A stretch of DNA of 64,000 nucleotides, taken from contig NZ_FOFN01000001.1 in the NCBI RefSeq assembly GCF_900111025.1, positions 1,116,001 to 1,180,000 on the forward strand, read 5' to 3'. This document shows positions 853 through 53,242 of this stretch, piece by piece. A model generated the notes under the pieces. The model ran no database searches and was not told where the DNA came from. It worked only from the letters and a program-made list of their open reading frames with translations. Positions within the stretch are counted from its first letter, which is position 1, and the number at the start of each line of letters is the position of its first letter. Origin of the DNA: Hyunsoonleella jejuensis. GTDB lineage: Bacteria; Bacteroidota; Bacteroidia; Flavobacteriales; Flavobacteriaceae. The position numbers and the translations under genes were made by a program.

Positions 853-881
853 AGCCTCAGTTTTTCACTGGGGCTTTTTTT
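853..881. terminator. Bidirectional rho-independent terminator
   Basis: The arms AGCCTCAG (853-860) and CTGGGGCT (868-875) form an 8-bp stem with one G-U pair. It is followed by T's on the plus strand and preceded by A's, so it can stop both the isomerase gene (+) and the GHMP kinase gene (-), which converge here. Confidence 0.85.
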
Positions 882-1824
882 ATAGAATCATATCACGGTA
901 AGGAATAACCGTATGGAATCCTTTTTTTATGAAATAAGAGCTAGGATCTTGCTCCGAAGCTGCAAGAATAAAATCGCCACCCCATGCCCCAAGACTTTTT
1001 AAAGCACCATCAAAATCACTAAAAAGTATAGATGTAACTGTATCTTGCCGTATTATTTTTGAAATAACCTGTTCGTGTGTAAATAACAATTCCTGGAATT
1101 CCTTTAAATTTTCACACGAAATCATTCGAGTTGTAATTGTAGTAATATCTGAGATAACCGAACCTAAATCCTGTTGAAACGTTTTGTAATGTGCAATACC
1201 ATCTCGACTATTTTGTTTTTTATTTAGATATACAAAATAGAGGTGGTTTTTAAATGAAGGGTTAAAAACTACAGGTTTTACTATTGGTGTGCCGTTCAGT
1301 AATTGATATGTAATTGCTGTATTATGTTGCGCACAAGCAATATCATACCCGCTACCACCAAAGGTGAGTTCTAACAATTTAAAAGCATCAACATTTGCCC
1401 ATTGGGCTATATTATTAATTAACGTCGAAGAGGTGCCAAGTCCCCAGTTATTAGGGAAATCTAAATGAGTTTCAACTTTGTATCCATTGTGGGTATTTAA
1501 AAAGTCTGGATTCAATGTGTTAACCGCTGAAAGTATTTGCTTTAGTCGTTGTGCAATATTTATATGCTGAATACTTGTGTTGAGTCCAGTCGAGGTGTGT
1601 TTCAGAACCTCAAAATCAACAGTATTAAATTCAGCGTCAAACCAACAATTACCATTTTCGTCAAAACTTTTCCAATGAATCTTTTGGTCTATAATGGTTT
1701 CAACATATAACGATTGCCCTTGTTTTGTTGGTGCAGCAAGTGCTATGGCACCATCCAAAACAACGTATTCGCCAGTTAATAATAATTTACCGTTGCTTCT
1801 AAATGTTTGCGAACTAGAATTCAT
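880..1824 (-). CDS. GHMP kinase, GYDIA type (probable mevalonate-pathway kinase)
   Basis: This is a 314-residue GHMP-superfamily kinase. Visible motifs are an N-terminal GKLLLTGEYVVLDG (residues about 12-25), the nucleotide-binding loop NWGLGTSSTL (about 126-135), GGSGYDIACAQHN (about 156-168), which gives this flavobacterial subfamily its name, and a late GAWGGDFILAAS that corresponds to motif 3. GHMP kinases of this type usually phosphorylate mevalonate or phosphomevalonate. The gene lies downstream of HMG-CoA reductase in the same direction, which supports a role in isoprenoid precursor synthesis. The exact step (mevalonate or phosphomevalonate kinase) cannot be told from sequence alone. 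Its ATG overlaps the TGA of the preceding GIY-YIG frame (ATGA at 1821-1824), suggesting translational coupling. Confidence 0.85.
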   Translation of the reverse strand: MNSSSQTFRSNGKLLLTGEYVVLDGAIALAAPTKQGQSLYVETIIDQKIHWKSFDENGNCWFDAEFNTVDFEVLKHTSTGLNTSIQHINIAQRLKQILSAVNTLNPDFLNTHNGYKVETHLDFPNNWGLGTSSTLINNIAQWANVDAFKLLELTFGGSGYDIACAQHNTAITYQLLNGTPIVKPVVFNPSFKNHLYFVYLNKKQNSRDGIAHYKTFQQDLGSVISDITTITTRMISCENLKEFQELLFTHEQVISKIIRQDTVTSILFSDFDGALKSLGAWGGDFILAASEQDPSSYFIKKGFHTVIPYRDMIL

Positions 1825-2254
1825 TTTCCTTTTTGATTAGTGCTTTCAGGTGTTTTCCGAGTTTTCTCAATACGTTTCTCAGAAATCAGATGGCTTGAGG
1901 TTCTTGTGGTGTCTGAGGTTCTCGTGGTGTCTGAGGTTCTCGTGGTGTCTGAGGTTCTCGAAGACACCTTGTCCCTGTAAGCAATTGACAGTTCTGGTAA
2001 ATTATCATAATTCTTTTCAATAAGAGCTTCTTTCTTTCTTCTATTCCAACCTTGTATTTGTTTTTCTCTATAGAATGCTTCGTCTATTCTTGTGAATTCT
2101 TCCATGTAGACTAAAGTTACTGGTAATCTTTTTTTTTATGATTAGCACCTAAACCACTGTGATGTTGATTTAGCCTTTTTTCTAAGTCAATAGTACTTCC
2201 AGTATAGTAACTGCCATCAGAGCATTCCAATATGTAAACGTAAGCTTTAGTCAT
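1821..2254 (-). pseudogene. GIY-YIG nuclease-like gene, frameshifted in an A9 tract
   Basis: Reading leftward from the ATG at 2254, the frame encodes [20 protein letters not shown], the GIY-YIG signature of small homing-type nuclease domains, and then runs into a tract of nine A's (2129-2137 on the plus strand) and stops at TAA. The second frame gives [20 protein letters not shown] (just after the tract), continuing with REKQIQGWNRRKKEALI, which is the usual second half of this domain. One added A (or two removed) would join the halves into a protein of about 144 residues. The C-terminal tail is unusual: it repeats TRTSDT because an 18-bp tandem repeat lies in the gene (1889-1960). The intact right half ends at the ATGA overlap with the GHMP kinase. 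It may be a dead gene, a phase-variable gene, a programmed slip, or an assembly error. Confidence 0.75.
1889..1968. repeat. 18-bp tandem repeat ending in a palindrome, inside the GIY-YIG 3' end
   Basis: Three exact copies of TGGTGTCTGAGGTTCTCG (1907-1924, 1925-1942, 1943-1960) follow a degenerate copy (1891-1906). The last copy continues into AAGACACC, so that 1944-1968 forms a hairpin with arms GGTGTCT and AGACACC around an inner GAG/CTC pair. The unit is a multiple of three, so the coding frame stays open. Confidence 0.9.
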
Positions 2255-2258
2255 TTTA

Positions 2259-2285
2259 GGTGTGCCTTCGAGTGCCTCAGGCACC
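2259..2285. repeat. REP-like palindrome upstream of the GIY-YIG gene, inverted relative to the 3' copy
   Basis: The arms GTGCC (2262-2266) and GGCAC (2280-2284) enclose an inner GAG/CTC. Read on the minus strand it starts GGTGCCTGAGG and matches the palindrome at 1944-1968 at all but about four of 24 positions, in opposite orientation. The two palindromes therefore bracket the nuclease gene. Confidence 0.8.
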
Positions 2286-2301
2286 TATGTTGGTGTTAAT
2301 T

Positions 2302-3618
2302 TTAACTTCTCAATTTCTCTAATGCCTGCACTACTGCGCTATGAGTGACAGTTTCTGTTTTAAAATGCGCAATTAATTTTTCTTTTTCTGATGGGGTCGC
2401 TTCAAACTGATTTAAAATATTCATCAAATGCATTTTCATGTGGCCTTGTTGAATCCCCGTTGTGGTTAAAGAACGCAATGCTGCAAAATTTTGAGCTAAA
2501 CCAGCCACAGCAACAATTTGCATTAATTCCTTAGCGGATGGTTTTCCCAACAATTCTAAAGCTAATTTTACCAAAGGATGTAGGCCTGTTAAGCCACCAA
2601 CCGTTCCTAGGGCCAGTGGTATTTCCATCCAAAATGTAAAAACCCCATCATTAACTTCAGCATGAGATAAACTGCTGTAGGTTCCATTCCGTGAAGCATA
2701 GGCATGTACTCCGGCTTCAATAGCTCTAAAATCGTTACCCGTTGCCAAAACCACGGCATCAATACCGTTCATAATCCCTTTATTGTGGGTTACCGCACGG
2801 TAGGGTTCAACCTCGGCTATTCTAACCGCTTCTACAAACTTTTTGGCAAAAGCTGCACCAGTAATCTTATGGTTTTCGGTTAACTGATCTACAGGGCAAC
2901 TTACTTCCGCTCTTACTAAACATTCAGGAACATAATTTGATAAAATACTCATTATAATATCAATATCTTTCTCTTCAGAAGAAAAACCATTAAAACGTAA
3001 CGCTTCATTTTTAAAGGTCTTTGCAAATTGCTCTAAACACGAATTAATAAAATTTGCACCCATAGCATCAAGGGTTTCAAATGAAGCATGCAATTGGTAA
3101 TAACCTTCGATGGCGGTGGTTTTATCGCGTAATTCAATATCCAAAATACCTCCTCCACGTTTTTCCATGTTAGCGGTGATAGATTTAGCATCTGCTATCA
3201 ATTTTGATTTTATATGGGTGAAATACGCCTCTAAATGTTCGTGATTTCCATAAAACTTAAAATGTACCTGACCAATTTTTTTAGTGGAGATTACTTCCGC
3301 TTTAAATCCACCACGATCCAGCCAAAACTTAGCGGCTTTACTTGCTGCAGCCACCACCGAACTTTCCTCAATGGCCATGGGTATGGTATAGGTTTTATTA
3401 TTTATTAGAAAGTTTGGAGCAACACCTAAGGGTAAATAATAATTAGTTATGGTGTTTTCTATAAATTCATCGTGTAGTTGCTGTAGCTTGTCGTTAGAAT
3501 TCCAATATTGCTTTAAAATCTGTTTTGTATTTTTAGTGTTAGGGAAGTAACTGTTCACTATCCAATCAATTTTTTCAGACTTAGAAAGTTTAGAAAACCC
3601 AGAAATCGTTTTACCCAT
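2302..3618 (-). CDS. mvaA: Hydroxymethylglutaryl-CoA reductase, class II
   Basis: This enzyme interconverts HMG-CoA and mevalonate, the committed step of the mevalonate route to isoprenoids. The 438-residue protein carries the class II landmarks: ENHKITGAAFAKK with the catalytic Glu, NKGIMNGIDAV with the catalytic Lys, ATGNDFRAIEAG with the catalytic Asp, and GHMKMHL with the active-site His near the C terminus. The start is the ATG at 3618 (MGKTISGFSKLSKSEK). A longer frame from a TTG at 3672 is unlikely because a good -7 element (3639-3646) lies between. In many bacteria class II enzymes are called degradative, but in flavobacteria they feed biosynthesis, and the neighbouring GHMP kinase fits that. 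It is the first gene of the minus-strand operon. Confidence 0.95.
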   Translation of the reverse strand: MGKTISGFSKLSKSEKIDWIVNSYFPNTKNTKQILKQYWNSNDKLQQLHDEFIENTITNYYLPLGVAPNFLINNKTYTIPMAIEESSVVAAASKAAKFWLDRGGFKAEVISTKKIGQVHFKFYGNHEHLEAYFTHIKSKLIADAKSITANMEKRGGGILDIELRDKTTAIEGYYQLHASFETLDAMGANFINSCLEQFAKTFKNEALRFNGFSSEEKDIDIIMSILSNYVPECLVRAEVSCPVDQLTENHKITGAAFAKKFVEAVRIAEVEPYRAVTHNKGIMNGIDAVVLATGNDFRAIEAGVHAYASRNGTYSSLSHAEVNDGVFTFWMEIPLALGTVGGLTGLHPLVKLALELLGKPSAKELMQIVAVAGLAQNFAALRSLTTTGIQQGHMKMHLMNILNQFEATPSEKEKLIAHFKTETVTHSAVVQALEKLRS

Positions 3619-3638
3619 ATTTACATGCTTTTGAAGTG

Positions 3639-3673
3639 CAAAGATACTACTCTTGTTACGAAAATTGAACAAC
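3639..3673 (-). promoter_or_regulatory. Predicted Bacteroidota promoter of the HMG-CoA reductase operon
   Basis: On the minus strand TATCTTTG (3646-3639) matches the -7 consensus TAnnTTTG, and GTTG at 3673-3670 can serve as the -33 element with a spacing near the upper limit. The predicted transcript starts near 3632, giving a very short leader before the ATG at 3618. Confidence 0.5.
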
Positions 3674-52700: not shown

Positions 52701-53069
52701 TCATTTAAAAGTGCCGTATTTGTAAACGAAAATGGGAAGTTTATCAGGCGCGACTTGCCTATACAGGCGCAAATTGCACCCACAAATCAAATTTTGGTAA
52801 AGGACTTTGATTCTGACGGGATTAAGGATATGGTTCTTGGCGGTAATTTATATGCTTCGGAAGTTGAAACACCTAGGGCAGATGCTGGTTATGGTACGTT
52901 TTTAAAAGGCCAAAAGGAAGGTAAAGGTTTTAATGCCTTAAGTGCCACACAAACAGGACTATTTATTGATGGTGATGTTAAAGACCTCGCGATGATTCAG
53001 GTGCAGGGAAAGTTTTACATTTTGGTAGCAAAAAACAATGATTTTTTAAAATTTGTTGCTATACTATAA
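49752..53069 (+). CDS. VCBS/FG-GAP and ASPIC/UnbV repeat lipoprotein (CRTAC1-like)
   Basis: This 1105-residue lipoprotein (GATILGCAGND, Cys17) is made of beta-propeller repeats with calcium-binding loops such as DINNDGLTD, DVNGDGLMD, DFDNDGDLD and DLDNDGDLE. An ASPIC/UnbV domain lies at about 513-590 (TVAFKGSAKNTHGIGAKIHL), and a second set of FG-GAP repeats follows (DLNGDGLDD, DADNDGDND, DFDKDGDKD, DIDNDGDID). No catalytic motif is seen. Such proteins often follow SusCD pairs in flavobacterial PULs and are thought to bind glycan or other surface proteins; the function is unknown. It sits 102 bases after susD. Confidence 0.92.
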   Translation: MLRYIVMLVLGATILGCAGNDAIEKNSGNTDKEKIFTKLLPEDTGIVFKNNLVENDTLNYFTYPYIYMGGGISAGDINNDGLTDLFFSGNMVDNKLYLNQGELNFKDVTEESGLSGDRRWYTGTTMADVNGDGLMDIYCLVAGQSGNKKNQLFINQGDNTFKEQASNLGLDDAGNSVDATFFDFDNDGDLDVYVANYPITPFEYNSYHYKMRMDRVTDTETDNLYRNDGGKFTKITNNAGVRLYSLSLSVTASDINNDGWIDLYVSNDFGTPDCLYINQKDGTFKNEIKSATAHTAFYGMGVDIADFNNDGHVDIIQMDMDASSNRRSKANMASMNPELFANIERVGFQYQYMQNALQINTGFNHQGIPKFKDISRLAGVSSTDWSWAPLLADFDNDGYKDLFVSNGTRREINNKDYFESLRGEKKHEDSLLIKSLNIPTEPIDNYVFKNNGDLTFSKSNANWGIEDKGFSNGAVYVDLDNDGDLELVTNNIDNYASLFENHSADISNHLTVAFKGSAKNTHGIGAKIHLYHNNKYQVQELSLSRGFQSSIAPKLHFGLGDDEKIDSLVVVWPNQKSQKLSDVKINTAITLDVNQAQGGKVVENNIAAGELFESFTDTLALYKHKENRYDDFKKEILLPHKTSQFGPGLSVGDLNGDGLDDFYVGAASKYPGGLFFQKSDGTFEQQKFKILLEDRKHEDIGSLIFDADNDGDNDLYIVSGGNEFNSGSPMLMDRLYVNQGNGEFIKSYNALPPISESGSRVYAYDFDKDGDKDLFVGGRLVPSNYPYPASSYILENISEAGKPKFRNITQNVAPELSRIGLVTAAQWFDYDNDGWEDLAVTGEWMQVRVFKNDKGKRFTETTKALGLDETRGWWFSLVADDIDNDGDIDLVGGNLGDNYKYKASDEATFDIYLNDFDGNRTNDIVLSYYNEGKQYPVRGRECSSQQIPSIKKKFKNYNEFSTATLSDVYSEKKLENAIHYQVSSFKSAVFVNENGKFIRRDLPIQAQIAPTNQILVKDFDSDGIKDMVLGGNLYASEVETPRADAGYGTFLKGQKEGKGFNALSATQTGLFIDGDVKDLAMIQVQGKFYILVAKNNDFLKFVAIL

Positions 53070-53163: not shown

Positions 53164-53184
53164 GGTGGCTGAGGTTCTCGAAGC
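53164..53184. repeat. Solo degenerate copy of the GIY-YIG-associated palindrome
   Basis: GGTGGCTGAGGTTCTCGAAG at 53164-53183 matches the palindrome at 1944-1968 in its central CTGAGGTTCTCGAAG but has lost most of the outer arm pairing. It lies between two convergent genes, where it does no harm. Confidence 0.7.
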
Positions 53185-53242
53185 AAGGGTAACACCCAAA
53201 TTTTGTTATTGGTTTGAGTCGTCTTAAAAAAGGTTTTTTTAT

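Follow-up and report, generated by a model that had tools for sequence, protein, structure and literature searches.

Small GIY-YIG nuclease genes bracketed by inverted palindromic repeats: candidate mobile units related to CGTC-tagged REPs

The window, a stretch of 64,000 nucleotides of Hyunsoonleella jejuensis DNA analysed here at its full length, contains a small GIY-YIG nuclease gene set between two palindromes in opposite orientation, together with a third, solitary palindrome. The features are as follows:

880–1824, minus strand: GHMP-kinase-like gene, 3' of the cassette (name from sequence reading)
1821–2254, minus strand: small GIY-YIG (UPF0213-like) nuclease gene, starting at 2254, with a PF01541 match
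1896–1949, plus strand: tandem partial palindrome copies with 18-nt spacing, preceding the downstream palindrome and giving RTSDTT repeats in the second-half frame
1944–1968, plus strand: downstream palindrome GGTGTCTGAGGTTCTCGAAGACACC, inverted relative to the upstream copy and inside the second-half reading frame
2258–2286, minus strand: upstream palindrome AGGTGCCTGAGGCACTCGAAGGCACACCT, directly before the nuclease ATG
2302–3672, minus strand: HMG-CoA-reductase-like (HMGR) gene, 5' of the cassette (name from sequence reading)
53164–53188, plus strand: solo palindrome, partly decayed, between converging genes ending at 53069 and 53243

The PF01541 match (Pfam) at the nuclease position was above the cut-off. 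The nuclease frame is broken in a T-run (2129–2137) and its second half continues in another frame to 1821, where it overlaps the start of the kinase gene; this copy is therefore either a pseudogene or affected by a sequencing error. Relatives of the window nuclease with an unbroken frame were found at the same site in genomes G005 and G004. In both, at the site matching window positions 880–2254, the GIY-YIG gene is in frame with the kinase gene, and the joint open frames span 436 (G005) and at least 305 (G004) codons, with a palindrome within the linker. With its broken frame (unless this is a sequencing error) and its partial repeat copies, the window cassette looks decayed, judging from sequence. 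Two further small GIY-YIG genes are present in the genome of H. jejuensis (G000), and a different repeat brackets each of them. The first-pass annotation had described a nuclease gene with one palindrome just upstream of its ATG and an inverted one at its 3' end. The inverted palindromes are real (5 of 25 aligned positions differ) and the upstream copy does stand before the ATG, but the frame is broken and the downstream copy lies inside it.

Hairpins of the form YGAG-loop-TCGAR with a matching stem occur exactly three times in the window, in the upstream and downstream palindromes and in the solo copy, so the degenerate solo copy that had been noticed is indeed the sole other such hairpin. 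Outside the flanks, one weak core match with three mismatches was detected (1594–1612), and a shuffled window gave no match to either palindrome core with up to three mismatches. The core CTGAGGNNCTCGAAG is present in 17 copies in the genome of origin, 3 of them inside the window (reversed control pattern, 0). In its best copies the window-type palindrome reads GGTNNCTGAGGNNCTCGAAGNNACC and the C/TGTCA tag is absent; it is treated here as a relative that acts alike, outside membership of the CGTC-tagged REP superfamily. By eye, solo window-type palindromes at three loci (L224, L226 and L225) were seen midway in longer terminator-like palindromes, as if inserted in terminator loops.

Small GIY-YIG genes were collected from relatives (one genome per species) and from named contigs, and were labelled group A or B by profile scores; eleven weak rows of the search in relatives were left out of the locus set. 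After duplicates and short flanks had been dropped, 115 of 126 group A and 43 of 44 group B genes were tested, the window gene being left out because its frame is broken, and the controls were 226 ORFs taken from the window and from 20 stretches of related genomes. A flank-to-flank match score of at least 15, in either orientation, was obtained for 97/115 group A and 37/43 group B genes and for 5/226 control ORFs (in these and all other counts the species are non-independent points). Bracketing of GIY-YIG genes by matching flanks, as the first-pass annotation had envisaged, is thus far above chance, and group B, intended as a contrast set, proved to be bracketed as well. Inverted matches of at least 13 were found for 88/115 group A genes, 28/43 group B genes and 10/226 controls, and direct matches of at least 13 for 68/115, 20/43 and 7/226, respectively; direct matches are common in the cassettes because many flanks hold several repeat copies. 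Two control matches in the window were short A-rich or chance matches. Cross-locus pairs had been used as the sole control and were replaced by the control ORFs and same-genome controls, since unrelated cassettes share palindrome types and this biases the comparison.

The repeats have a preferred direction. Upstream of the group A genes, the tag side of the hairpin nearest the gene faced outward in 61 cases and inward in 14, with no hairpin in 40 (n=115), and downstream the corresponding values were 71, 14 and 30 (n=115). Among the control ORFs, 224/226 upstream and 219/226 downstream flanks had no nearest hairpin. Counts of the TGTCA k-mer by orientation gave the same picture: upstream of group A it was outward in 73/115 and inward in 37/115 (controls 17/226 and 18/226), downstream it was outward in 72/115 and inward in 27/115, and in group B (n=43) outward versus inward counts were 17 versus 8 and 17 versus 3. 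These two approaches were used besides a detector requiring the tag and a perfect stem, which was too strict for the group A hairpins and yielded the opposite downstream result (13 outward versus 23 inward).

Each nuclease gene tends to be associated with its own repeat. Where a genome held several such genes, the highest match score fell on the gene's own flank pair in 46 of 59 cases, against an expectation of 8.9, and a score of at least 15 was reached in 47/59 cases versus 9/218 for other genes of the same genome; in genome G007, five of the six nuclease genes reached this score with their own flanks. Protein and palindrome divergence were correlated for pairs below 70% identity (Spearman 0.466 for 83 group A and 0.363 for 28 group B genes), and 0 of 999 permutations reached the observed value in either group. 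Among the 149 family genomes, the median number of YGAGCGNAGTCGAR copies was 15 in the 54 genomes that carry group A (presence defined by a hand-set cut-off at E about 1e-28), 2.5 in the 20 group-B-only genomes and 0 in the 75 with neither group; the reversed pattern gave four matches in all 149 genomes. Within a set of 20 searched genomes, copies of the window core numbered 17, 15 and 15 in those three that carry this gene type and palindrome. Elsewhere in this set there were 15 copies in G008, one to three in four genomes and none in twelve. The expectation that palindromes match the nuclease of their own genome was thus mostly borne out, but not in G008, for which the search returned no window-type nuclease gene despite its 15 window-type copies, nor in eight family genomes that lack a group A gene and have at least 15 copies of the YGAGCGNAGTCGAR type; conversely, four group A genomes had none. 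Repeat copy numbers were modest, 1–36 where present for exact cores and reaching 134 with the looser pattern.

Across 30 distinct copies of the window-type repeat, the stem appears to have been kept by compensating changes, with 42 doubly changed cells versus 17.0 ± 2.8 in shuffles (0/500). Another covariation measure, the number of pairs with a double change, gave no excess (5 versus 4.9 in shuffles). All 30 copies hold GA...TCGA in the stem, a motif that allows two drawings, one with a GA bulge and one with tandem G.A mismatches. In a DNA energy model the A and window-type hairpins fold weakly (z from −2.2 to +0.4) and two CGTC types gave z values of −4.7 and −5.8. Both CGTC-type sequences that were folded show the CGTC-REP pattern of an 8–9 bp stem starting with A-T pairs and a loop of 4–5; the stems of group A are shorter and have a GA/GA mismatch or bulge.

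The nuclease is a one-domain protein of about 95–110 residues. Y7, Y17, R27, H31 and E65 were invariant in 15 aligned rows, and R27 was nearly invariant in 41 rows; these are the conserved Y, Y, R, H and E residues of the GIY-YIG core, which have a catalytic role. For a group A protein, AF2 gave a model with a pLDDT of 92, and the nearest solved relative was 1zg2 both by sequence (E 1e-11) and by fold (4e-6), followed in fold by 1ywl and Slx1 entries. A predicted fold close to UPF0213 and then to Slx1, a branched-DNA nuclease, fits an enzyme that may read DNA structure. Five proteins were scanned with NCBIfam and no family scored above its cut-off; the group I intron GIY-YIG homing endonuclease family TIGR01453 was rejected, with 17 and 29 bits in two of the five proteins against a cut-off of 56.

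The cassettes vary in presence at defined sites. Of the 12 species of the genus, 3 carry the cassette at the HMGR/kinase site, and in the other nine a gap of 10–55 nt separates the aligned ends; at a second site, between TrmH and M48 genes, 4 of 12 species are filled and 8 are empty (8–130 nt). In a three-protein tree the cassette-filled species did not form one clade, and G002 and G007, the closest pair on this tree, differ at the TrmH/M48 site. These patterns would fit either gain or loss of the cassette. The TrmH/M48 cassette recurs in other genera, TrmH lying upstream in eleven loci (one of them, L086, being the same contig as L009), and some cassettes are old residents. At the HMGR/kinase site of G004, the gene is kept and the palindromes are different, an outcome that the first-pass annotation would have counted against the association. 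The two G004 flanks still match each other, which looks like co-change rather than lost association.

Similar variation was observed outside the genus. In Azospirillum lipoferum a cassette lies between sufB and sufC and is absent in four other Azospirillum records. In Sphingobium, the site between fnrL and a response regulator gene carries a cassette in seven records (three of the seven filled strains were read) and lacks it in four. The gene-free site of strain TomTYG64 contains one palindrome with tags at both ends, composed of the left part of the upstream repeat and the right part of the downstream repeat with 8 nt shared; it looks like a deletion scar formed from the outer parts of both repeats. 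Other palindromes are present at the gene-free fnrL site of strains TomTYG72 and TomTYG65.

Repeats were also found inside genes. A solo repeat of 24 nt lies in frame in a methyltransferase gene of G000 only (1 of 12 species), so that the anticipated solo copies at sites empty in sister genomes could be confirmed for one copy, lacking in 11 of the 12 species. In G000 and G008, Mfd contains an inverted repeat pair at a place where variable stretches of other kinds occur in other species. The methyltransferase and Mfd genes were picked for copies already seen and are therefore uninformative on the frequency of insertion. Residues of about 270–305 of Mfd (P0001, L251–L262) appeared by eye to be hotspot-like, with about three palindrome types across the genus.

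With a group B protein as query, 33 records were retrieved from a plasmid collection, some of them plainly chromosomes, and 15 were taken, mostly one per genus (10 alpha-, 1 beta- and 2 gammaproteobacterial, 1 cyanobacterial and 1 Spirosoma). Inverted flank matches of at least 13 were obtained for 12 of these 15 named loci, including 10 of the 13 proteobacterial ones, and for 0/99 annotated genes from four of the same replicons. The matches of Planktothrix (14) and Spirosoma (13) were marginal, and no inverted match of at least 13 was found in Sinorhizobium C101, Rhizobium tumorigenes and Photobacterium. The first-pass annotation had placed the proposed role in flavobacteria; the cassette itself is not restricted to them. 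A CGTC tag was recognised by eye on the flanks of 9 of the 15 loci, for example CGTCATCCTCGGGCTTGACCCGAGGATCCA in Shinella. Inward-facing tags were seen, by eye, in Neisseria gonorrhoeae and, with CCTC, in Sinorhizobium meliloti. The N. gonorrhoeae gene has about 50% identity to the group B query, and CGTCATTCCCGC..GGGAATC palindromes adjoin it. Group A genes were also present in contigs labelled as Nitrospirae/Nitrospinaceae MAGs (L124, L129 and L141), by horizontal transfer or contamination.

According to the available part of a 2013 survey (Di Nocera et al., PMC3733652), there are two bacterial REP superfamilies, one with a RAYT enzyme (REP-associated tyrosine transposase) and the other, of the CGTC type, without a dedicated transposase; its authors offered the ideas that CGTC REPtrons may have been lost early or that many transposases are able to move the repeats. 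The CGTC-REP organisms named there include A. lipoferum, S. meliloti, Novosphingobium aromaticivorans and Neisseria. The term 'GIY' is absent from that part of the survey. The repeats described here resemble CGTC-tagged REPs, as presented in the same text, in their C/TGTC tag, hairpin, facing pairs, a CCA-like tail in several alphaproteobacterial loci and copies inside repair genes (intragenic REPs in repair genes are reported there; compare Mfd above), and differ in having a GIY-YIG gene between them. They share with RAYT REPtrons, which carry GTAG-tagged REPs, a small gene bracketed by inverted tagged palindromes and solo and paired copies elsewhere, including inside genes. However, the enzyme is of the GIY-YIG (UPF0213-like) type rather than a Y1/HuH transposase, and the tagged repeats fall on the CGTC side, whereas Y1 genes of the same genomes carry other repeats. 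The GIY-YIG cassettes would thus fit the missing element (REPtron) of CGTC REPs. A literature search for a GIY-YIG/REP link found none, the Ssn study (see below) being outside this comparison, and PMC9465073, in the part available, mentions both a RAYT and a GIY-YIG endonuclease among its clade genes but treats them separately and draws no link.

We suggest, and consider somewhat probable, that the bracketed gene is a GIY-YIG REPtron, recognising and cutting its own repeat, with host repair spreading cassette and repeats. Its unit would be the nuclease gene with a hairpin repeat (REP) specific to its family on either side, the two copies being inverted and the C/TGTCA tag, where present, mostly facing outward. 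The nuclease would recognise its own family's repeat in folded form and cut at or near a single-stranded copy, as might be exposed on the lagging strand, in repair gaps or during DNA uptake. Host repair could then leave the cassette, or single or paired repeats, in new places, usually intergenic and occasionally in frame within a gene, and each nuclease and its repeat would diverge jointly over time. We infer recognition, cutting and the causal role of cutting in spread from the associations described above. To our knowledge, no GIY-YIG enzyme is a strand-transfer enzyme. The first-pass annotation, which had ascribed to the nuclease a RAYT-like dispersal of its own palindromes, is partly supported in its interpretation of the unit; dispersal by the nuclease is something we likewise infer.

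The closest known family is probably Ssn, reportedly a family of site-specific single-stranded GIY-YIG nucleases presented in Nature Communications in 2025 and said to be concerned with ssDNA cutting and transformation; part of the repeat association may, from what is said of that study, already be included in it. By this description, Ssn resembles the present system in its GIY-YIG superfamily, in its repeat targets, in a Neisseria relative, which matches the group B query, and in having cognate repeats beside the gene and genome-wide, with exceptions such as G008; the present analysis adds that gene and repeats vary in presence and are inserted. The nearest solved relatives, UPF0213 (1zg2, 1ywl) and Slx1, have entry titles that state no repeat association. 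It is conceivable, if unlikely, that the genes encode Ssn-type nucleases cutting the repeat in ssDNA for a host purpose, such as tuning DNA uptake or recombination, the repeats being working sites spread otherwise and the bracketing reflecting nearby targets and no mobile unit. The palindromes beside the N. gonorrhoeae gene and the fact that dRS3 repeats are CGTC-1 REPs speak for this explanation. However, a host role alone leaves unaccounted for the presence/absence of whole cassettes at defined sites, the several nuclease genes with different matching flanks in one genome (G007) and the solo insert in a coding gene. The Ssn family would account for recognition and cutting, and possibly for a host role, but not by itself for movement.

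Two further explanations place the cause of the pattern outside the nuclease or in its target. That RAYT/Y1 transposases of the same genomes move the palindromes in trans, with the GIY-YIG gene as a passenger, seems very improbable, even though a PF01797 match is present in 10 of the 12 genus genomes. When five GIY-YIG-type palindrome patterns were sought up to 250 nt from 23 Y1 genes (27 loci, four without a usable frame), none of the genes had one, 7 of the 23 had inverted flank repeats of their own, and G006, with four Y1 matches, had no small GIY-YIG match at E 0.001 and almost none of the three exact palindromes tried. Likewise, the 2013 survey (PMC3733652), in the part available, found no RAYT flanked by CGTC repeats. 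It also appears improbable, if to a lesser degree, that the gene inserts by homing at palindromes or terminator hairpins already in place, bracketing being a by-product of target choice. The palindromes at the gene-free sites of TomTYG64, TomTYG72 and TomTYG65 would agree with such homing, but that of TomTYG64 is most simply a deletion scar, the gene-free HMGR/kinase and sufB/sufC gaps have, by eye, no such palindrome, and control genes are bracketed in only 0/99 and 5/226 cases.

The GIY-YIG REPtron would have wider consequences. We give even chances to the proposal that the CGTC-tagged REP superfamily has its dedicated mobility enzymes in the small GIY-YIG nucleases, making up a second class of REPtron unrelated to that of the RAYTs. 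If true, this class would span Bacteroidota to Proteobacteria, perhaps also Cyanobacteriota; Neisseria dRS3 would belong to it and so, by extension, would the CGTC REPs of Rickettsia and Wolbachia. It would achieve mobility through a nuclease that only cuts, with joining by host repair. The bracketed genes offer a concrete candidate for the enzyme missing from CGTC REPs, the many natural enzyme-repeat pairs are material for deriving recognition rules, and repeat families catalogued separately in different bacteria become linked.

An RAYT-like Y1 gene in the genome of H. jejuensis (L314, G000:C2:208442-208627) is bracketed by an unrelated inverted repeat, ACTCGTT..AACGAGCGCTAGC, and two REP systems therefore coexist in this genome. 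On the Planktothrix agardhii plasmid (L275), the GIY-YIG gene (692–976) lies between MmeI-type and DISARM drmA defence genes.
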